Shown: positions 3-24,350 of the stretch, piece by piece
How the letters are laid out: every line of letters begins with the position of its first letter
Numbering within the stretch: the first letter of the stretch is position 1
Virus record (IMG/VR): IMGVR_UViG_3300017758_000079
Location: 1-29,112 of that record
Origin: a virus
Length of the DNA: 29,112 nucleotides
Reading direction: 5' to 3' (one strand)
The notes under the pieces: model-generated
Told to the model about the DNA's origin: nothing
Seen by the model: the letters and a program-made list of their open reading frames with translations, nothing else
The model's database searches: none
Program-made: the position numbers and the translations under genes

Positions 3-446
3 CCAAAGGTAGCTAATCGATTTATATTGGATGTTGATGGTATACCATCGTATATAATTAAGGGAGTTAGTGGAATGGGGTTCGCGCAGGATGAAATAAT
101 ATTAAATCATATAAACACTTATAGAAAAGTAAAAGGTAAATTAAGATGGAATGATTTAACAATGGAATTATTTGACCCTATTACACCTTCAGGGGCTCAA
201 GCAGTAATGGAATGGACAAGATTACACCATGAATCAGTTACTGGTAGAGATGGTTATTCTGATTTCTATAAAAAAGATTTAACAATTGATGTATTGGGTC
301 CTGTCGGAGATGTAGTTTCTGAATGGATTATTAAAGGTGCTTTTATTAAGGACGCATCATTTGGGGATATGAATTGGGATGATGATACTACAGTAATGAA
401 TATTTCTTTAACATTAGGAATGGATTATTGCGTATTAAATTTCTAA
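3..446 (+). CDS. 19: Tail tube protein, T4 gp19-like (5' end outside window)
   Basis: This is the inner tail tube subunit, which stacks inside the contractile sheath and forms the channel for DNA. The frame is open to the left edge and first reads PKVANRFILDVDGIPSYIIK, which matches the beginning of T4 gp19-type proteins (NRF...DG.PSYLIKG). A TTG at position 27 is in frame but lies inside this conserved stretch, so it is not the true start; only a few N-terminal residues are missing. Other conserved features are the WNDLTMELFDPI segment and the ending LTLGMDYCVLNF. About 147 residues are visible, compared with 163 in T4 gp19. A strong terminator follows, as expected for an abundant virion protein. 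The next genes are a tail assembly protein and the tape measure, the usual order in tail modules. Confidence 0.9.
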   Translation, partial: PKVANRFILDVDGIPSYIIKGVSGMGFAQDEIILNHINTYRKVKGKLRWNDLTMELFDPITPSGAQAVMEWTRLHHESVTGRDGYSDFYKKDLTIDVLGPVGDVVSEWIIKGAFIKDASFGDMNWDDDTTVMNISLTLGMDYCVLNF

Positions 447-545: not shown

Positions 546-1292
546 ATGTCTGAAAATAAATTTAAATTCCCTACTGAAGAAGTAGAATTACCATCAAGAG
601 GCTTATTATATCCTAAAGATCATCCATTAAAATCTGGAAAGGTTGAAATGAAATATATGACAGCTAAAGAAGAAGATATTTTAACTAATCAGAATTATAT
701 ATCTAAAGGAATTGTATTAGATAAATTATTACAATCTTTAATTGTTACTGATGTAAAACTTAAAGATATATTAATTGGTGATAAAAATGCTATTTTAATT
801 GCTTCACGTATATTAGGGTATGGTAAAGATTATAAGATTAGGTATAAGGGTCAAGAACATACTGTAGATTTAAGTTTATTAGAAAATAAAAAAATAGATG
901 AAGATTTATTTAAAGGTGGAAAAAATGAATTTGATTGGGAACTACCACATTCTGGAACTAAATTAACATTTAGATTGTTAACTGATGGTTTAGATAAAGA
1001 AATTGAAGCAGAAATTAAAGGTATTCAAAAAATTAATAAAGGAGCATCACCTGAAATTTCAACAAGAATGAAATATATAATTACTTCAGTAGAAGGAGAC
1101 TCATCTGGTAAAACTATTAGAGATTTTGTTGATACTTATCTTTTAGCTCGAGATGCAAAAGCATTAAGAGATCATGTAATAAAAATACAACCTGATATAG
1201 AATTAAAAGCCACAATTACTAATGAGTATGATGAGCTTGAAGAAATAGATGTACCAATTTCTTTAAATTTTTTTTTCCCTGACGCCAACTGA
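546..1292 (+). CDS. 26: Baseplate hub / tail assembly protein, T4 gp26-like (T4_baseplate family)
   Basis: This 248-residue protein carries the signature of the T4_baseplate (gp26) family near its N terminus: ELPSRGLLYPKDHPL at about residues 14-28, then VEMKYMTAKEEDILTN. T4 gp26 has 208 residues and is needed for hub assembly. The body is soluble, with no signal or membrane segment. The gene lies between the tail tube and the tape measure, the place where many phages encode tail assembly chaperones. The last in-frame codons cross a run of nine T (1268-1276) and stop at 1290-1292. The conserved-looking continuation lies in another frame (see 1267-1566), so ribosomes probably make both this short form and a longer fusion. 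The start ATG follows an A-rich leader without a Shine-Dalgarno sequence. Confidence 0.8.
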   Translation: MSENKFKFPTEEVELPSRGLLYPKDHPLKSGKVEMKYMTAKEEDILTNQNYISKGIVLDKLLQSLIVTDVKLKDILIGDKNAILIASRILGYGKDYKIRYKGQEHTVDLSLLENKKIDEDLFKGGKNEFDWELPHSGTKLTFRLLTDGLDKEIEAEIKGIQKINKGASPEISTRMKYIITSVEGDSSGKTIRDFVDTYLLARDAKALRDHVIKIQPDIELKATITNEYDELEEIDVPISLNFFFPDAN

Positions 1293-1566
1293 AGCAGCTC
1301 AATATAGAAGTAATATTTTTTCACAAATTCATGAAATAGTTTTTAATGGTAAGGGAGGCTATGATTGGGATACTGTGTATAATATGCCCATATGGCTTCG
1401 TAATTTCACATTTAAAAAATTAGATGAATTTTATAAACAACAAGCAGAAGCTCGGAAACCTAAAAAGAATAATGATATAGATTTATCTAATCCTAATAAA
1501 TCAAAACTTCCCCCTAAAAGAACAGTTTCACCTCCTACTTATATTACAAAAGCATCGAGAAAATAG
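1267..1566 (+). CDS. 51: Frameshift extension of the gp26-like protein, T4 gp51-like C-terminal part
   Basis: This frame is open from just after a TAA at 1264-1266 to the TAG at 1564-1566. It encodes an ordered sequence, LTPTEAAQYRSNIFSQIHEI, then VFNGKGGYDWDTVYNMPIWL and RNFTFKKLDEFYKQQAE, and ends in a basic, Pro/Lys-rich tail. The segment around YDWDTVYNMPIWLRNFTF resembles the small gp51-type hub assembly proteins I recall from marine T4-like phages (from memory, not checked). There is no ATG before 1384, inside the conserved segment; the GTG at 1375 would also cut it. Translation is therefore most likely reached by slippage from the gp26-like frame on the T9 run, giving a fusion of about 340 residues. 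The shift needed is +1, or equally -2. Independent initiation at GTG 1375 would yield only 63 residues and seems less likely. Confidence 0.6.
   Translation: MFFSLTPTEAAQYRSNIFSQIHEIVFNGKGGYDWDTVYNMPIWLRNFTFKKLDEFYKQQAEARKPKKNNDIDLSNPNKSKLPPKRTVSPPTYITKASRK
1268..1276 (+). promoter_or_regulatory. Candidate programmed frameshift (slippery) site, run of nine T
   Basis: AAA TTTTTTTTT CCC lies at the end of the gp26-like frame, 14 bases before its stop. A tRNA-Phe on TTT can re-pair after a +1 or -2 slip, and a T9 run can also cause RNA polymerase slippage. Either would join the upstream frame to the open frame at 1267-1566. Tail assembly chaperone pairs such as lambda G/GT and their Mu counterparts use frameshifts at this gene position. 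Confidence 0.55.
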
Positions 1567-1597: not shown

Positions 1598-4000
1598 ATG
1601 GTTAAAAAGAGTAAATCTCAAATAGAAGCAGAAAAAAATGCAAAAGAAACAGCTGTAGTTGTTGAGGATGCTTTAAGAAATATTGCTGATAAAGTAGGTG
1701 ATATTTTTAAAGAAGCTCTTTCTTCAACTGATAATGTTTCTAAAGCAATTGCTAAAGATATTACAGGAACATTAAATTCACTAGCTAAAGTATCAAAAGA
1801 TTTAGCAGATGCTAATATTAAAGCAGCTGAAGGAGCATTTAGACAAGCTGATGCTGCTAAACTTATCCAACAAAGACAAGCTAAAATAAGAGCTATAAAT
1901 TATCAAATTTTAGCTTTAGATGAAGAACAAGTTGATGCAAAAGCAGACTTATTAAAGGAATTAGCAAAAATAGAGAATTATAATGATGAATTTGTAGCAG
2001 GCCTGCAAGAACAAGTAAGTTTATCCCAAAAGTTTAACAAACAAATGGGTCTTACGGGAGTTGCTTTAGGTGGTCTTAAGTCATTAGCAGGTAATTTAGG
2101 ATTAGGAGCTTTAACTGATACTTTTGATAATGCTGAGGCAGCAGCAAAAGAGGTAGTAGATGTAACTGGAGGATTAGCTAATCAATTTAAAGTATTAGGT
2201 GCTGGTTTAGCATCGTTAGGTAAAAGTTTTTTAAGTTTCCTTACTTCTCCTGTAGCAATGATAGGTCTTTTAATTAAAGGTTTTCAATCATTATTATCAT
2301 TAGGTCAGAAATTTAGTCAAAAAACAGCAGATATAGGAAAATCCTTTTTAGGGATGGGAAGTGGCAGTGCAACAGTTGTAAAAAACTTAAAACTAATAGC
2401 TCAGGAAAATAATAATATGAATTTTGCTGAAGCTAAGAGAGCTATGGATGGTATAAATGCTGTAGCAGGTACATCTGTAATGGTAAGTAAAGAACAAGCT
2501 AATACTTACCAAGAATATGTAGATTTATTAGGTTTAAGTGAAGAAGCAACTCAAGGATTATTTAAAATTTCAGAATTAACAGGAACAAGTTTTGGGGATA
2601 TAGATGATACTATTAAAAATACTGTAATGGGTATTGATGGGGCATCAGAAGCATCAGTTAATTTAACAGATATAATGAATGAAGTAGCTATGGCATCATC
2701 TACTACATTAGCTAATGTAGGTTCCAGTCCAGAGGCATTAGCAAAAGCAGCATTTCAAGCTAAAAGATTAGGAATGACATTAGATCAAATAGCTGCTGCA
2801 GGTGAAGCTTCTTTAGATTTTGAATCTTCTATTGCTAATGAAATGGAAGCTGAGTTATTGCTAGGTAAAAATCTTAATTTAGAAGCTCTTAGATCTGCAT
2901 CTTTAAGAGGAGATGAAGAACAAGTAGCAAAGGAAATGAATAGAATTCTTTCTGAAAATTATGATGCAACTGAAGGTAATAAAATTGCACAACAAGCTTT
3001 AGCAAAAACCTTAGGGGTAAGTGTGGATGAAATGCACAAAATGAATCAAACACGTTTACTTCAAAATCAACTAGCTAAAAAAGGTATAACTGATCAAGAT
3101 TTAGCACAAAAAACACTTGCTAGATTTAGAAAAGAAGGTTTAACTGAAGCAGAAGCAATGGCTAAGTTAAATGAAGAAGAACTTGAATTTACAAAACAAA
3201 AAGGAATAGATGCACAAGCAACAACAAGAACTTTAGAAAATGCTAAAGAACTTTTTATGAATTCATTAGCTCCTTTAGCTGAAAAAGTAGCAACAGCATT
3301 TAGTTCATTAGTTAATAATGAGGGTTTTAAGACTATGTTATCTTCAATAGCAGGTGTATTAAAAAGTATAGTAGGATTTGTAATGGATTTCCCAAAATCA
3401 TCACTTGGAATAGGCCTTTCAGCTATTTTTGGTGGGTCATTGCTTAAAGCAGTTACAGGTGGAAAGTTAGGATCGTCTGGAAACCCAATGCATGTAACAA
3501 TGTCCAAAGGTGGATTAATGAGTAGTTTACTAAGTAAAATTACAGGAGGAGGAGAAGGTGGAGGATTAGGTGGCATAAAATTTCCAAAAGGAAAAGGTAT
3601 GCTAAAAGGAGCAGGTAAATTAGCAAAAGGAGTACTTGGTAAAGTAGCAGCACCCTTAGCAATTGGAATGGCTTTATTTGATGGTTTTAAAGGATTTAAT
3701 GCAGATAAAAGTGCATCATTAGGAGATAAATTTAAAAATGCAGGATCTAGTGCTTTAAATGGTTTATCATTTGGTTTATTAGGACAATCAGCAGATACAA
3801 TCTCAGCAAATGCTGCCGTTAATGGTAGCAATGTTCCTTTACCTTCTAATATTGCAGCAACTACAACTGCCCCAACTGAAAATGAAGTTGTTACTTTATT
3901 AAAAGAATTAATAGTAGCAGTAAAAGATGGAGGTGATGTTTATATGGATGGGAATAAAGTAGGAAGATCGTTAGTACTTGCAACTTCTAATATGGGATAA
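1598..4000 (+). CDS. Tail tape measure protein (T4 gp29-like role)
   Basis: This 800-residue protein has the composition and position of a tape measure, which sets tail length and is ejected before the DNA. Residues 1-150 are Ala/Lys/Glu-rich helix and coiled coil. Hydrophobic stretches follow at about 200-235 (FLTSPVAMIGLLIKGFQSLL) and in a Gly-rich region at about 600-700 that includes VAAPLAIGMALFDGF. It lies directly after the tail-chaperone-like frames and before the baseplate genes. Sequence similarity to T4 gp29 (590 residues) is not obvious by eye, so the call rests on size, composition and synteny. The usual relation of about 0.15 nm per residue would predict a tail near 120 nm. The ATG at 1598 fits the short leader. 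The long opposite-strand frame at 3094-3831 is a shadow of this gene. Confidence 0.8.
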   Translation: MVKKSKSQIEAEKNAKETAVVVEDALRNIADKVGDIFKEALSSTDNVSKAIAKDITGTLNSLAKVSKDLADANIKAAEGAFRQADAAKLIQQRQAKIRAINYQILALDEEQVDAKADLLKELAKIENYNDEFVAGLQEQVSLSQKFNKQMGLTGVALGGLKSLAGNLGLGALTDTFDNAEAAAKEVVDVTGGLANQFKVLGAGLASLGKSFLSFLTSPVAMIGLLIKGFQSLLSLGQKFSQKTADIGKSFLGMGSGSATVVKNLKLIAQENNNMNFAEAKRAMDGINAVAGTSVMVSKEQANTYQEYVDLLGLSEEATQGLFKISELTGTSFGDIDDTIKNTVMGIDGASEASVNLTDIMNEVAMASSTTLANVGSSPEALAKAAFQAKRLGMTLDQIAAAGEASLDFESSIANEMEAELLLGKNLNLEALRSASLRGDEEQVAKEMNRILSENYDATEGNKIAQQALAKTLGVSVDEMHKMNQTRLLQNQLAKKGITDQDLAQKTLARFRKEGLTEAEAMAKLNEEELEFTKQKGIDAQATTRTLENAKELFMNSLAPLAEKVATAFSSLVNNEGFKTMLSSIAGVLKSIVGFVMDFPKSSLGIGLSAIFGGSLLKAVTGGKLGSSGNPMHVTMSKGGLMSSLLSKITGGGEGGGLGGIKFPKGKGMLKGAGKLAKGVLGKVAAPLAIGMALFDGFKGFNADKSASLGDKFKNAGSSALNGLSFGLLGQSADTISANAAVNGSNVPLPSNIAATTTAPTENEVVTLLKELIVAVKDGGDVYMDGNKVGRSLVLATSNMG
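1997..2006. repeat. GC-rich 10-base palindrome GCAGGCCTGC, copy 1
   Basis: A perfect palindrome lies inside the tape measure gene. The identical decamer occurs at 19111-19120. It stands out against the very AT-rich background, but both copies are coding, so the match may be chance. Confidence 0.5.
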
Positions 4001-10941: not shown

Positions 10942-12201
10942 ATGTTTTGGTTAGTTGAAAGTAAAGTTCAATTTGAACAGTTTACAAATGCTAATTGGGA
11001 AGAAGTTTTTATAGAAGTAATTCCAAATAGTTATTTAATACATCCTGCACAAAATAATATTTGCGCTTTGTATATTAGACCATTATTATCAACTAAAGGA
11101 TTTATTGTCCCACTATCACATAGTGAAACTTTAAATATAAATATAACGGAAATAAACACGATGTTACATAAATTTAGTAGCATATATGTGCGTGATAAGA
11201 AGGAATTTTTACATTATTTACCACTAAAAGGCCTCTTTGACATAAACCAACAAAACCCTCCGTATATACCAGAATTAACCCAAACACATCACATTTTTAA
11301 TAGGAGATATCCTAATAAAAAAGACATAAATAGAATTATACCTATAGTTAAACATTATGAATATTGTGAAAAAATATATAATAACCTTAAAGATAAAATA
11401 AATGAACAAATCAATGAATTCTACAATAATAAATCTTCAGTGGTTTTCAACGCCATTGAAAGAAATGGTATACGAGTTAATAGAGAAAAATTTGAATCGT
11501 ACTTTCATGTTATCGACGGAGATTACGTCTACACGCAGTACAACTTTAAAACTCTTACAGGAAGACCAAGTAATAAATTTAAAGGAGTAAATTATGCCGC
11601 AATTAATAAAGAAAACAATAGTCGAGAAAGTTTTATACCCCGTAATGACATTTTTGTTGAGTTTGATATTGGGGCTTATCATCCTACTTTGTTATCTAAG
11701 TTGGTTGACTTTGATTTTGGTAATGAGGATATTCATACTGCCTTTGCGAAAATGTATGGGGTTGAATATAAAAAAGCCAAAGAATTAACATTTAAACAAT
11801 TATATGGAGGAGTATTTGATCAATATAAAGATCTAGAATTTTTTAAAAAAGTTCAAGTATATACTGATAATTTATGGGAAGAGTTTAAAGAAAAGGGCTG
11901 GATTGAATGTCCTATTTCAAAACATAGGTTTATTAAAGAAAAAATAGGTGAAATGAAGCCTCAAAAATTATTAAATTATTTACTACAAAACTTGGAAACC
12001 GCAATGAATGTTCATATATTGTGGGACATAATTAAGTTATTAAGAAATAAAAAAACAAAAATAGTTTTATATACTTATGATTCGTTTTTATTTGATTTAG
12101 ATAAAGAAGAAGAAGATGTGTTGGAAGAAATAAAAGAGCTATTTAATAAATATAAACTACAAATAAAAATATGCTATGGAAACGATTACAATTTTAAATA
12201 A
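10942..12201 (+). CDS. Family A DNA polymerase, compact, with degenerate exonuclease region
   Basis: This is a template-directed DNA polymerase of the Pol I family, 419 residues against 605 for Klenow. Visible motifs include TLTGRPS with Arg208 (Pol I TGRLSS), motif A EFDIGAYHPT with Asp242, motif B KAKELTFKQLYGG with Lys280, Phe284 and Tyr288 in Pol I spacing, Asn345/Gln349 matching Pol I N845/Q849 spacing, and motif C YTYDS with Asp380. Motif C normally reads HDE, so His and Glu are replaced. Residues 21-103 follow the layout of the Klenow 3'-5' exonuclease domain, but the DxE and later Asp positions are lost (VFIEVIPNS), so proofreading is probably absent from this chain. T4 itself uses a family B polymerase. 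The downstream neighbours (gp32, uvsX, 5' nuclease, gp41) support this as the replicative enzyme. Confidence 0.85.
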   Translation: MFWLVESKVQFEQFTNANWEEVFIEVIPNSYLIHPAQNNICALYIRPLLSTKGFIVPLSHSETLNINITEINTMLHKFSSIYVRDKKEFLHYLPLKGLFDINQQNPPYIPELTQTHHIFNRRYPNKKDINRIIPIVKHYEYCEKIYNNLKDKINEQINEFYNNKSSVVFNAIERNGIRVNREKFESYFHVIDGDYVYTQYNFKTLTGRPSNKFKGVNYAAINKENNSRESFIPRNDIFVEFDIGAYHPTLLSKLVDFDFGNEDIHTAFAKMYGVEYKKAKELTFKQLYGGVFDQYKDLEFFKKVQVYTDNLWEEFKEKGWIECPISKHRFIKEKIGEMKPQKLLNYLLQNLETAMNVHILWDIIKLLRNKKTKIVLYTYDSFLFDLDKEEEDVLEEIKELFNKYKLQIKICYGNDYNFK

Positions 12202-17109: not shown

Positions 17110-18963
17110 ATGAACATTACGCAGGAAATACTATCAGATATTGTAGTTTATAACAAATATGCAAAATATTTACCTAATAAACAAAGGAGAGAAACATGGG
17201 AAGAGTTAGTTACTAGGAATAAAGAAATGCACCAAGAAAAATTTCCTGATTTAAAAGATGAAATAGAAGATGTTTATAAAATGGTATATGATAAAAAAGT
17301 TTTACCATCAATGCGTAGTTTACAGTTTGCAGGAAAGCCTATTGATATAAATAATTCTAGAATATTTAATTGTTCTTTTTTACCAATTGATGATTGGAGA
17401 TCATTTAGTGAGGTAATGTTTTTATTACTTTCGGGTTGTGGTGTAGGTTATAGTGTTCAAAAACATCACATTGAAAAATTACCTGAAATTAGAATTCCTA
17501 GAAAAACAAGAAGATTTTTAGTAGGAGATTCAATTGAAGGATGGGCTGATTCTGTTAAAGTATTATTAAAATCTTATTTTGGGATAACAACTGCAAGACC
17601 TATTTTTGACTTCCGTGATATTAGACCAAAAGGAGCAGAATTAATTACTGTAGGAGGTAAAGCACCAGGCCCAGAACCATTAAAAGAATGTTTATTTCAA
17701 ATACAAAAGGTATTAGATAGAAAAGAAGATGGAGAACAATTAACATCTATTGAAGCTCATGATATTATTTGTCATATTGCTGATGCTGTATTATCTGGTG
17801 GTATTCGTAGAGCAGCATTAATTTCTTTATTTGATTTACATGATAATGAAATGTTAACTTCAAAACATGGTGCTTGGTGGGAATTAAACCCACAAAGAGG
17901 AAGAGCTAACAACTCAGCTGTAGTTATTCGTTCAAAAGTAACTAAAAAAGATTTTTCTGAATTATGGAGTAAAATTGTTGCTAGTAATTCAGGCGAACCT
18001 GGGATTTATTTTTCAGATGATAAAGATTGGGGTACAAATCCATGTTGTGAAATTGCTTTAAGACCATTTCAATTTTGTAATTTAACAGAAATTAATGTTT
18101 CTAACATAGAATCTCAAGAGGATTTAAATAAAAGAGTAAAAGCAGGTGCATTTTTAGGAACTTTACAAGCAGCTTATACTAATTTCCATTATCTTCGTGA
18201 TATTTGGAAAAGAACAACTGAAAAAGATGCACTTGTGGGGGTAGGAATGACAGGAATTGGTAGTGGGATAGTTTTAAAATATGATTTAGAGGAAGCAGCT
18301 AGAGAAGCTAAAAAAACAAATGAAGAAGTTGCTAATATTTTAGGGGTTAATAAAGCAGCTCGTGTAACAACAGTAAAACCTTCAGGAACTAGTTCATTAG
18401 TATTAGGAACTTCATCAGGGATTCATGCTTGGCATAATGATTTTTATGTAAGACGTATGAGATTAGGAAAAAATGAAGCACTCTATCAATATCTTTCTCA
18501 ATCTCACCCAGAATTAGTTGAAGATGATTTCTTTAAACCTGATATTCAAGCTGTAGTTTCAGTTCCACAAAAAGCACCTAAGGGGGCAATTTATAGAACA
18601 GAAAGTCCAATGGATCTATTAGAAAGAACTAAAAAGTTTAATATGGAATGGGTAAAAGCAGGCCATAGAAAAGGAGCAAATACAAATAATGTTTCAGCAA
18701 CAATATCAGTTAAACAAGATGAATGGGACTCAGTTGGAGAATGGATGTGGGAAAATAAAAATACATTTAATGGTTTATCTGTATTACCTTACGATAATGG
18801 TTCATATACTCAAGCTCCTTTTGAAGATATTTCAGAAGAAAAATTCTTAGAAATGGAAAGTCATTTAAATAATATTGATTTAAAAAAGATAATTGAAATG
18901 ACTGATGAAACAGATTTAAAGGATCAAGCAGCTTGTGCTGGGGGTGCTTGTGAAGTAGTGTAA
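17110..18963 (+). CDS. nrdJ: Class II (adenosylcobalamin-dependent) ribonucleotide reductase
   Basis: This enzyme reduces ribonucleotides to deoxyribonucleotides for phage DNA synthesis, using a B12-generated thiyl radical. It resembles the monomeric RTPR type of Lactobacillus leichmannii. Key residues are Cys88 (FNCSF, RTPR C119), Cys312 and Glu314 in NPCCE (C408, E410), Cys323 in FCNL (C419, the same 11-residue spacing) and the C-terminal redox pair Cys609/Cys614 in CAGGAC (C731/C736). The MFLLLSGCGVGYSVQ and GTSSLVLGTSSGIH segments are also typical. At 617 residues it is shorter than RTPR (739): the Cys88-Cys312 interval is 65 residues shorter. Class II is oxygen-independent and common in marine phages. 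The start follows an A-rich leader. No cobalamin riboswitch fits in the 32-base gap upstream. Confidence 0.93.
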   Translation: MNITQEILSDIVVYNKYAKYLPNKQRRETWEELVTRNKEMHQEKFPDLKDEIEDVYKMVYDKKVLPSMRSLQFAGKPIDINNSRIFNCSFLPIDDWRSFSEVMFLLLSGCGVGYSVQKHHIEKLPEIRIPRKTRRFLVGDSIEGWADSVKVLLKSYFGITTARPIFDFRDIRPKGAELITVGGKAPGPEPLKECLFQIQKVLDRKEDGEQLTSIEAHDIICHIADAVLSGGIRRAALISLFDLHDNEMLTSKHGAWWELNPQRGRANNSAVVIRSKVTKKDFSELWSKIVASNSGEPGIYFSDDKDWGTNPCCEIALRPFQFCNLTEINVSNIESQEDLNKRVKAGAFLGTLQAAYTNFHYLRDIWKRTTEKDALVGVGMTGIGSGIVLKYDLEEAAREAKKTNEEVANILGVNKAARVTTVKPSGTSSLVLGTSSGIHAWHNDFYVRRMRLGKNEALYQYLSQSHPELVEDDFFKPDIQAVVSVPQKAPKGAIYRTESPMDLLERTKKFNMEWVKAGHRKGANTNNVSATISVKQDEWDSVGEWMWENKNTFNGLSVLPYDNGSYTQAPFEDISEEKFLEMESHLNNIDLKKIIEMTDETDLKDQAACAGGACEVV

Positions 18964-20948: not shown

Positions 20949-23900
20949 ATGAAAAAACTACAGTTATTATTATTAATAATTTTAATACCTTTTTTAGGTT
21001 ATACACAAAATTCTTGGATTCATATCCAATTAATGACAGATAATTATCCTTCTGAAACAAGTTGGGATATTACCCCTCCAGGTGGTTCACCTATTATTAT
21101 AGAAAATGATAGCAATATGCTACCTAATACTTTATATGATACTATTGTTCAACTTGGTGGAACTATTATTGCAAGCATATATGATGAATATGGTGATGGT
21201 TTATCTTCCTCACAATTTGGTGGTACTGATGGTTGGTTTATGATTAGTAATTCATGTCAAGATACAATTATGTATGTTGCAGGTAATTTTGGAGATAGTT
21301 TAGTACAAACATTAACTATTGCTCCTTGTGCTCCTCCTCATGGAGGTTGTTTAGACCCAATAGCATTAAATTATGACTCTACAGCTACATTTTCAGATAG
21401 TTCTTGTATTTATCCTTTATGTAGTGGGTTAGATACTTTTTGGGTAGAAAATTTTTGTAATGTAGGTCAAAATAAAGTTTGGTACCATTGGAGTAATATG
21501 CCTAATCCTAATTGTAGAATGGCTTATTATACTAGAACAACAGATCCTAATACTCTAGGTAATACTTGGTATCCATACCCTATAAATTTTTCAAACACAG
21601 GTTTATTGTATAGTAACAGCCAACCAAATACTACTTATTACTTTTTAGGAATGTTAGCTGATTCAAGTTTAACAGATACTTTAGTAATAACAACAGGAGA
21701 ATGTATTCCTGGTTGTATGGATCCAACAGCTTTGAATTATAATCCTTGGGCAAATACAGATGATGGTTCATGTCAAGCACCTCCTGCAAATTGTGTAAAT
21801 GGAGAATCTAATATTGTAATAACAATTACACCAGATACTTATGCTGGAGAAACTTCTTGGGAAATTGCAGATACAACAGGTACAGTATTAGCAACATCAC
21901 CTAATTATACTATAACAGGAGTACCTGTAATATCAGAAATATGTGTACCAAATGGTACTGTAATAGAATTTACTTTATTTGATTCTTTTGGAGATGGTTT
22001 ATGTGGTTCATGTTATGGTGGAGTAGATGGTACAGCATTAGTTCAAACTTTATGTGGTGATACTTTATTATCAATATTACCAGGTAATGCAAATTTTGGA
22101 AATGATACTTCTGTAATTTATACTGTAACTCCTTGTACACCTAATATTATTTTAGGATGTACTACTCCAGGATTTACAGAATATAACCCACAAGCTAACA
22201 CTGATGATGGTTCTTGTTTAACTCCTATAGTAATTGGTTGCATAGACTCAACTTCACCTGATTATGACCCATTAGCAAATACAATGGATATAATTCCTAG
22301 TTGTGATTATACTTTAGTAATTACAGATGAAGCAGAAGATGGATGGTTTGGTGCATGGGTTGGTATATTACAAGATACTACAATATTAGGTCCTTTTATG
22401 ATGGGCCCTAATGATGGTTATTCAGAATCTTTTACAATTACTTTAAGTGCTTTAAATCCAGTTGAATTAATGTTTTTTGCTCCAGGCAATTCATCAACAA
22501 CAGCAAATCAATGTGGATTCTTTTTAATAGGTCCTGAAGGTGATACTACATTATCTGGTGGTACTAATCCTTGGACAGATCCTATGTTACAATTTCCATA
22601 TAGATATAATAATGTACCTTATTGTGGAGATTATTGTACACCTGGAGTTTTAGGTTGTATGGATCCTACAGCATTAAATTATGATAGTCTAGCTAATATG
22701 CCTGATACTTGTACTCCAGTTATTTTAGGTTGTACAAACAGTTTAGCATTTAATTTTAATCCAACTGCAAATGTAGATGATGGATCGTGTGAACCTATAA
22801 TAATAGGATGTATGGATTCAACTGCATTTAATTATAATCCTTCAGCAAACACAAATGATCCTTTGTCTTGTATACCTGTAATATTAGGATGTATGGATGA
22901 TACACAATTTAATTATAACCCAGCAGCAAATACAGATGATGGTAGTTGTATTCCAATAATATTTGGTTGCACTGACCCATTAGCTTATAATTTTGATTCA
23001 TTAGCTAATACTAATAATGGTTCATGTATACCAGTTATTTTAGGTTGTACTGACCCAACAGCTTTTAATTATAGTACTAATGCTAATACAGATGATGGTA
23101 GTTGTATTCCTGTAATAATTGGTTGTACTGACCCAACAGCATTAAATTATGATTCTTTAGCTAATACTAATAATGGGTGTATTTATCCAATTCTAGGTTG
23201 CACAGACCCTAATGCTTTTAATTTTAATGTAAATGCAAACACAGATGATGGTTCATGTGTACCTGAAGTTTTAGGATGTACTGATCCTACAGCTTTAAAC
23301 TATGATTCATTAGCAAACATAAATATAGGTTGTATTTACCCAATTTTAGGTTGTACTGACCCAACAGCATTTAATTATAATGTAAATGCAAATGTAGACG
23401 ATGGTTCATGTGTACCCTATATTTATGGATGTACCGATTCTACAGCTTTTAATTTTAACCCAACAGCAAATACAAATGTAGGATGCATTTACCCAATTTT
23501 AGGTTGTACAGATCCTACAATGTTTAATTTTGATCCATTAGCAAATACAGATGATGGTAGTTGTATTCCTTTTATCTATGGTTGTATGGATCCTATAATG
23601 TTTAATTATGACCCTAATGTTAATACTGATAATGGTTCGTGTATTCCTTTCATATATGGATGTACAGACTCAACGCAATATAATTTTGACCCAACAGCAA
23701 ATACAGACAATGGATCTTGTATACCCTACATATATGGTTGTACCGATAATACAGCACTTAATTTTAATATACTAGCAAATACACTAGATAATTCTTGTTG
23801 TTATATAGGAGGTTGTACTGACCCAACAGCAGTAAATTATGACCCAGATGCTTGTTTTGATGATGGGTCATGTGTTACACCAATTTCAGGTTGTACTGAC

Positions 23901-24350
23901 GTGTCTGCTTATAATTATGATCCTACAGCAAATGTTTCAGATACAACAGCTTGTTTATATGATGCTGGTTGTTATGGAGGACCTGGAATACCTTATTGGT
24001 TAAATGATGGATGTTATGCTTGGGTAATTGATGTTGATAATTATTGTTGTACTAATGACTGGGATGTAAGTTGCCAATCAATGTATAATTATTGTGAATT
24101 AGGTTGGCCTACTTCACTTGAAAATTTATCTACATTAGGTATAAGAGTTTATCCAAATCCTGCACAAGATATAGTAAATATTGATACTCGTTTAAATATT
24201 AAAGTAGAATTATATAATATAACAGGAGAATTAATATTAAAAGAAGAAAATTGTAAAAGAATTAATATGAGTGATTTTCCTTCTGGTATTTATCACGTGA
24301 TAATAATTTATCAAGAAAAAAGATTTATAAATAAAATAATTAAACAATAA
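20949..24350 (+). CDS. Cysteine-rich repeat surface protein with T9SS type A sorting domain
   Basis: The 1133-residue protein begins with a signal peptide (MKKLQLLLLIILIPFLGYT, cleavage near Gln20). Two related domains resembling Flavobacteriia extracellular modules appear early: TDNYPSETSWDITPPGG near 34-50 and PDTYAGETSWEIADTTG near 295-311, each followed by an acidic YGDGL or FGDGL turn. Twenty-one units of the form GC(T/M)DPTAxNYxPxANTDDGSC occur between residues 133 and 1002; units 5-21 are tandem. A Cys/Trp-rich segment (YCCTNDWDVSCQSMYNYC) follows. The last 70 residues are a typical Por-secretion/T9SS sorting domain: VYPNP (1067-1071), VELYNITGELI, INMSDFPSGIYHVIII, KIIK. It should be secreted across the outer membrane by the host type IX system and attached to, or released from, the surface. 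A role in adhesion, aggregation or surface shielding is inference; the T9SS tag is clear. Confidence 0.9.
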   Translation: MKKLQLLLLIILIPFLGYTQNSWIHIQLMTDNYPSETSWDITPPGGSPIIIENDSNMLPNTLYDTIVQLGGTIIASIYDEYGDGLSSSQFGGTDGWFMISNSCQDTIMYVAGNFGDSLVQTLTIAPCAPPHGGCLDPIALNYDSTATFSDSSCIYPLCSGLDTFWVENFCNVGQNKVWYHWSNMPNPNCRMAYYTRTTDPNTLGNTWYPYPINFSNTGLLYSNSQPNTTYYFLGMLADSSLTDTLVITTGECIPGCMDPTALNYNPWANTDDGSCQAPPANCVNGESNIVITITPDTYAGETSWEIADTTGTVLATSPNYTITGVPVISEICVPNGTVIEFTLFDSFGDGLCGSCYGGVDGTALVQTLCGDTLLSILPGNANFGNDTSVIYTVTPCTPNIILGCTTPGFTEYNPQANTDDGSCLTPIVIGCIDSTSPDYDPLANTMDIIPSCDYTLVITDEAEDGWFGAWVGILQDTTILGPFMMGPNDGYSESFTITLSALNPVELMFFAPGNSSTTANQCGFFLIGPEGDTTLSGGTNPWTDPMLQFPYRYNNVPYCGDYCTPGVLGCMDPTALNYDSLANMPDTCTPVILGCTNSLAFNFNPTANVDDGSCEPIIIGCMDSTAFNYNPSANTNDPLSCIPVILGCMDDTQFNYNPAANTDDGSCIPIIFGCTDPLAYNFDSLANTNNGSCIPVILGCTDPTAFNYSTNANTDDGSCIPVIIGCTDPTALNYDSLANTNNGCIYPILGCTDPNAFNFNVNANTDDGSCVPEVLGCTDPTALNYDSLANINIGCIYPILGCTDPTAFNYNVNANVDDGSCVPYIYGCTDSTAFNFNPTANTNVGCIYPILGCTDPTMFNFDPLANTDDGSCIPFIYGCMDPIMFNYDPNVNTDNGSCIPFIYGCTDSTQYNFDPTANTDNGSCIPYIYGCTDNTALNFNILANTLDNSCCYIGGCTDPTAVNYDPDACFDDGSCVTPISGCTDVSAYNYDPTANVSDTTACLYDAGCYGGPGIPYWLNDGCYAWVIDVDNYCCTNDWDVSCQSMYNYCELGWPTSLENLSTLGIRVYPNPAQDIVNIDTRLNIKVELYNITGELILKEENCKRINMSDFPSGIYHVIIIYQEKRFINKIIKQ
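22653..23954 (+). repeat. Tandem array of about 60-75 bp coding repeats (17 units)
   Basis: Within the T9SS protein, residues 569-1002 hold 17 successive Cys...Cys units of 20-22 core residues joined by short linkers such as IPVIL, IYPIL or VPYIY. DNA identity is high between some units: GGTTGTACTGACCCAACAGC occurs exactly four times (near 23043, 23120, 23351 and 23813). This suggests recent unit duplication or recombination, so copy number may vary between related phages. Confidence 0.9.

Follow-up and report, generated by a model that had tools for sequence, protein, structure and literature searches.

In a virus record, a reading frame with no usable start of its own overlaps the end of a gp26-like frame, flanked by genes for the tail tube and the tape measure, and the question that this locus raises is how the second frame is expressed. 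The record is 29,112 bases long and was analysed as a whole (hereafter the window). Its gp26-like frame ends just after a run of nine T (T9, 1268-1276), reading AAT TTT TTT TTC CCT GAC GCC AAC TGA with the stop at 1290-1292, and a second frame of 99 residues, in +1 to the first, spans 1267-1566. The first GTG/ATG of this second frame lies 85-94 nt beyond the 0-frame stop, within the conserved core (YNMPIWLR). In these respects the locus is as the original prediction had described it, with a gp26-like and a gp51-like part and no usable start codon between the T run and the conserved segment of the second frame; the prediction had proposed that a programmed frameshift joins the two. Our results indicate that the locus is very likely a two-product tail assembly chaperone (TAC) gene, in which a programmed +1 ribosomal frameshift would generate a short (TAC-N) and a long (TAC-NC) form. 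The features, all on the + strand, are as follows.

3..446, + strand: tail tube protein (gp19-like), upstream neighbour; 5' end beyond the window; phrog_4542 tail tube, E 8e-21.
546..1292, + strand: TAC-N, gp26-like tail assembly chaperone; 248 aa, ending ...LNFFFPDAN*; phrog_150, E 1.5e-9.
1266..1268, + strand: codon before Phe-Phe; third base C or G in 73/80 representatives, T in the window.
1269..1280, + strand: candidate frameshift signal TTT TTT TTC CCT; P-site UUU (77/80) or CUU (3/80), A-site U (80/80), CCU (80/80).
1272-1274 and 1275-1277, + strand: proposed slip codons, P-site UUU (+1) and A-site UUC, then CCU; the A-site codon is UGG in most relatives.
1276..1566, + strand: predicted extension (gp51-C-like helical domain) read after the shift in the +1 frame; 96 aa and a stop codon.
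546-1274 joined to 1276-1566, + strand: predicted TAC-NC, 339 aa.
1598..4000, + strand: probable tape measure protein, 800 aa, downstream neighbour; assigned by position, length and synteny with immuto.

The neighbouring genes put the pair where TAC genes typically lie, with the tail tube upstream and the tape measure downstream, as had been proposed. The tail tube assignment rests on the phrog_4542 match (the PF06841 match to the same product, with E 7.5e-6, falls just under the cut-off of that family), and the tape measure is identified by its size and by synteny, as the corresponding gene in immuto is annotated as a tape measure. The product of 1598..4000 had no family match in domain and PHROG profile searches, and megablast of the window against phages returned no match. 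The phage is T4-type, and its host is probably among the Flavobacteriales. The gene at 20949-24350 codes for a protein of 1133 aa in which many GCTDPTAxNYNxxANTDDGSC-type repeats occur together with a Por_Secre_tail domain (type IX secretion sorting), a combination that points to a Bacteroidota host. Elsewhere in the window, what appears to be a fragment of a family A DNA polymerase, only 419 aa long (10942-12201; PF00476 E 0.0009, below cut-off; phrog_17 E 9e-9) lies near the gene for a gp32-like protein, and a ribonucleotide reductase of only 617 aa with a class II (B12-dependent) insertion domain is encoded at 17110-18963.

Both parts of the predicted fusion show homology to the gp26/gp51 family. 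Both gp26 and gp51 of T4 are members of phrog_150 and PF12322, gp51 carrying in addition a C-domain (phrog_634), and the N part of the window protein matches phrog_150 (E 1.5e-9). For the C-domain, phrog_634 gave no direct match, and the relationship to gp51 C appears through an intermediate only: the window C-domain aligns with that of the Kyanoviridae-type clade (the -1 clade described below; hhalign E 1e-6), which in turn aligns with T4 gp51 C (hhalign E 1.4e-6). Alignments of the window-group N-domain to single T4 sequences and to a P-SSM2-type alignment using hhalign were not significant. The AlphaFold model of the N-domain (pLDDT 92.6) has among its best viral matches the SP-15 and T4-like baseplate hub assembly proteins, and the HK97 TAC (2ob9) ranked first in the PDB at a non-significant score (E 1.3, TM 0.45 of target). 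The modelled C-domain comprises three helices followed by a low-confidence tail; a fold search with it gave no match under E 0.001, with a tape measure chaperone of phage Moogle at rank 13. Sequence searches of the PDB with both profiles gave no useful match.

Frameshifting in TAC genes is conserved in long-tailed phages except T4, and can be -1, -2 or +1 depending on the phage (reviewed in PMC5009743). The locus resembles lambda gpG/gpGT and other frameshifting TACs (Xu, Hendrix and Duda 2004, as cited in PMC5009743) in its position between tube and tape measure, in its short/long layout and in a C-domain that would be added through a frameshift shortly before the first frame ends. It also has the conserved overlapping second frame that lacks its own start (except in L138 and L142) and a conserved slippery site (UUU/CUU, U, CCU), the latter of a +1 kind and not the commoner -1 heptamer. 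The likeness considered here is one of layout; lambda shifts -1, and the window lineage would shift +1 on a single UUU without detectable structure. The original prediction had further held that the pair would newly recast gp26/gp51 as T4-family chaperones. This part had been anticipated: T4-type TACs (gp26/gp51) were identified by Vladimirov, Gautam and Davidson (Virology 2022, as cited in PMC10885494 and PMC12846349); some T4-like phages are described in PMC10885494 as having a short gene plus a fused long gene, and PMC12846349 refers to known polyT-containing -1 signals in T4-like TAC-N genes. The T4-family TAC pair and TAC frameshifting in general are thus already known. What looks new here is that this large lineage would shift in the +1 direction, with a signal of its own, where Kyanoviridae use -1; the literature that we searched gave no account of such a signal in the lineage, although this does not prove that there is none.

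Relatives of the window were collected as 80 tblastn-confirmed IMG/VR loci, and wider scans with more distant queries added 80 Mel-JY01-type, 20 LR756508-type and 80 cyanophage-type loci. The overlap is kept throughout the window group. Its gp26 frames end in FFWPD, FFFPD, FFYPD or FLWPD, the downstream domain is in the +1 frame wherever the contig is long enough, and a search for loss of the second frame found it intact in all 79 loci with enough sequence (the window included). The same arrangement was found in 77 Mel-JY01-type loci (75 by the frame rule, plus L187 and L216 by homology, where both frames are long), 16 L084-type loci, six annotated or huge-phage records (immuto, Mel-JY01, LR756508, SP-15, GXN1 and LIS04) and three contigs from Flavobacteriales MAGs, giving a total of ~180 loci that include cultured phages. 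This breadth bears on the simplest objection, an assembly or sequencing error in the homopolymer. A T9 run in a metagenomic record would invite such an error, but an identical frame relation in ~180 independent assemblies and isolate genomes argues that it is not one, and we regard the probability of this explanation as negligible. SP-15, GXN1 and LIS04 (L085, L086 and L089) are phages of Gram-positive hosts and show the +1 relation at UUU_CAC, UUU_CGU and UUU_AGU, respectively. Using SP-15 as query against viral contigs, SP-15 itself was the sole match.

It could be argued that the downstream frame is a separate gene, translated from an internal or non-canonical start by translational coupling and never fused to TAC-N. 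The annotators of immuto did call a small downstream ORF, and a search among the relatives for a separate start found one in two sister loci, L138 and L142. In both, the C-domain follows its own plausible ATG at the junction and the slip site is altered as well: L138 has lost the slip codon (TTC TTG TAT), and in L142 CTT TGG is intact but CCT is replaced by CCA. These two loci represent an apparent switch from frameshift to separate gene. For the lineage as a whole, a separate gene is very unlikely. From the upstream stop to extension codon 24, 46/80 representatives have no ATG in the +1 frame and 25/80 have no ATG, GTG or TTG before the conserved core. Upstream of its first Met, the extension has a median dN/dS of 0.10 (35 residues, 211 pairs), indicating purifying selection there, and the conservation of the slip codons would have no reason if no ribosome shifted there. 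A CUG start in the +1 frame was also considered and ruled out, as CTG is absent from this stretch in Mel-JY01, LR756508 and SP-15.

The codon usage at the junction is more specific about the mechanism (80 representatives that differ from each other by >20%). The proposed P-site codon is UUU in 77/80 and CUU in 3/80 and is never UUC, although UUC accounts for 20% of the Phe codons of these genes and may be used for the preceding Phe. A UUC codon cannot re-pair in +1, where its tRNA would face UCU or UCC, whereas UUU and CUU can re-pair. The first base of the A site is U in 80/80 (UGG in 69, UUC and UAC in the rest), CCU follows the A-site codon in 80/80, and the third positions of codons further upstream are near random. 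In LR756508 the site reads AAC TTT CTA TTC CCT, and the slip would therefore sit one codon earlier. The slip run sought in relatives is thus conserved as the UUU/CUU, U and CCU positions and not as T9. Runs of T7 are typical; T9 occurs in three representatives and T8 in six, and in 8/80 the longest run is only 3-6 T (e.g., TTTCTTT in L018, immuto).

A T9 run is long enough for RNA polymerase to slip, an option that the original prediction had also allowed, and transcripts with T8 or T11 would restore the frame. A run that is T7 as a norm, and that is sometimes interrupted, cannot provide a general mechanism of homopolymer slippage, and synonymous codon choice in the lineage shortens the T run instead of lengthening it, which would be unexpected if the polymerase slipped. 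Specifically, C or G is the last base of the codon before Phe-Phe in 73/80, compared with a background of 21% (A/T occupies 79% of third positions across these genes). Asn at this position is AAC 26 times and AAT 3 times against a background of 282:643 (Fisher 1e-10), Ser is AGC in 15:0 (4e-8) and Asp is GAC in 9:0 (2e-6). A codon ending in T would complete the -1 heptamer T_TTT_TTT, so that its synonymous avoidance breaks the heptamer. The window is among the few loci with AAT before Phe-Phe, by which its run becomes T9. We therefore consider transcriptional slippage unlikely. The remaining option in the original prediction, a -2 ribosomal shift that would add one residue, is known for phage Mu (PMC5009743), and T7 runs would permit perfect -2 re-pairing. 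It is nonetheless very improbable here: in loci with TTC TTT (15/176 counted) a -2 shift would place tRNA-Phe on UCU, re-pairing in those reading TTC TTT TGG (L127 and others) fits +1 and not -2, and a -2 shift needs no U at the first A-site position. Among the three proposed routes, it is the +1 ribosomal shift that agrees with the codons.

Precedents exist for a +1 shift of this kind. The bacterial prfB gene (RF2) shifts at CUU_UGA. In both this gene and influenza PA-X (UCC_UUU_CGU; PMC3498833), the P-site tRNA re-pairs in +1, on CUU and on UUU/UUC, respectively. The GXN1 site (UUC_UUU_CGU_C) closely resembles that of PA-X, and the immuto-type CUU_UGG_C resembles the RF2 site. The main clade differs from both in that its A-site codon is a sense codon (UGG, UUC or UAC), neither a stop as in prfB nor a rare Arg codon as in PA-X. 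RF2 also has a Shine-Dalgarno-like stimulator, whereas no such sequence is evident at conserved positions upstream of the site in the window lineage. Downstream RNA structure was not found either (mean folding z -0.15 for +6..+66, with a weak -0.75 for +12..+90), and the +1 model does not explain why ribosomes should pause with UGG or UUC in the A site. Among TACs, that of the haloarchaeal myovirus HSTV-2 very likely shifts +1 (PMC5009743); here the likeness is by description, a +1 shift proposed for a myovirus TAC, and the HSTV-2 host is archaeal.

Within the T4-type phages the direction of the shift appears to vary. The C-domain of P-SSM2, S-PM2, Cr30, phiM12 and W-14 is in the -1 frame at T_TTT_TTY, and in the cyanophage-type -1 clade the base before the slip is T in 75/75, with T_TTT_TTC. 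The window lineage does not carry a -1 heptamer (X_XXY_YYZ), with its C-domain in the +1 frame and C or G before TTT TTT in 73/80. T4 does without a frameshift: its genes 26 and 51 are adjacent on opposite strands and divergently transcribed, whereas the window lineage has an overlapping +1 frame, with an N-domain in phrog_150 and a C-domain linked to gp51 C by the -1 clade profiles. A tree of the N-domain separates a T4/Kyanoviridae/Ackermannviridae side (-1 or two genes) from a +1 side with branch support of 100/100. Two huge-phage relatives, LR756511 (L087) and Atu_ph07 (L107), fall on the +1 side on long branches and have their C-domain in the -1 frame (CAT_TTT_TTC in Atu_ph07). The direction has probably changed more than once, but the placement of these two is unsure. 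We think it fairly likely that one TAC family uses opposite shifts at Phe codons in almost identical positions. The Kyanoviridae/T4 side would shift -1 on U_UUU_UUC, and the other lineage, which is large, partly flavobacterial and for the most part uncultured, would shift +1 on UUU_U and also block -1 through synonymous choice of the preceding codon. The +1 shift would operate at a pause on a sense codon, usually UGG, with no recognisable structure or Shine-Dalgarno stimulator, and the separate 26 and 51 of T4 would be a third solution.

A programmed +1 frameshift in this TAC gene is strongly supported by comparison of the sequences and is experimentally unproven. Most ribosomes would terminate at TGA 1290 and release TAC-N (248 aa). 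In the remaining fraction, a pause would leave tRNA-Phe on UUU (1272-1274) in the P site with a U-initial codon in the A site, the tRNA would re-pair one base forward on UUU, and translation would resume at UCC (1276) for 96 further codons, adding the helical C-domain to give TAC-NC of ~339 aa. By analogy with lambda gpG/gpGT, TAC-N and TAC-NC would form a coat on the tape measure protein, and the recruitment of tail tube subunits would fall to TAC-NC. The overlap, its conservation, the limits on codon choice and the relationship of both domains to the gp26/gp51 family are seen in the sequence itself, whereas the occurrence and efficiency of the shift, as well as the chaperone role, are inferred.

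For annotation, the finding means that public records (immuto, SP-15, LIS04) miss or misannotate the final ~65 to 100 codons of this gene; in the entries of SP-15, GXN1 and LIS04 the extension is missed or cut. For the phages themselves, the +1 shift would provide a mechanism for the long TAC form in a large T4-type lineage, and one that is testable with cultured phages. It would also place the two-gene layout of T4 in an evolutionary series of -1 shift, +1 shift and separate gene, and would offer a natural comparison of -1 and +1 signals on nearly identical Phe codons.
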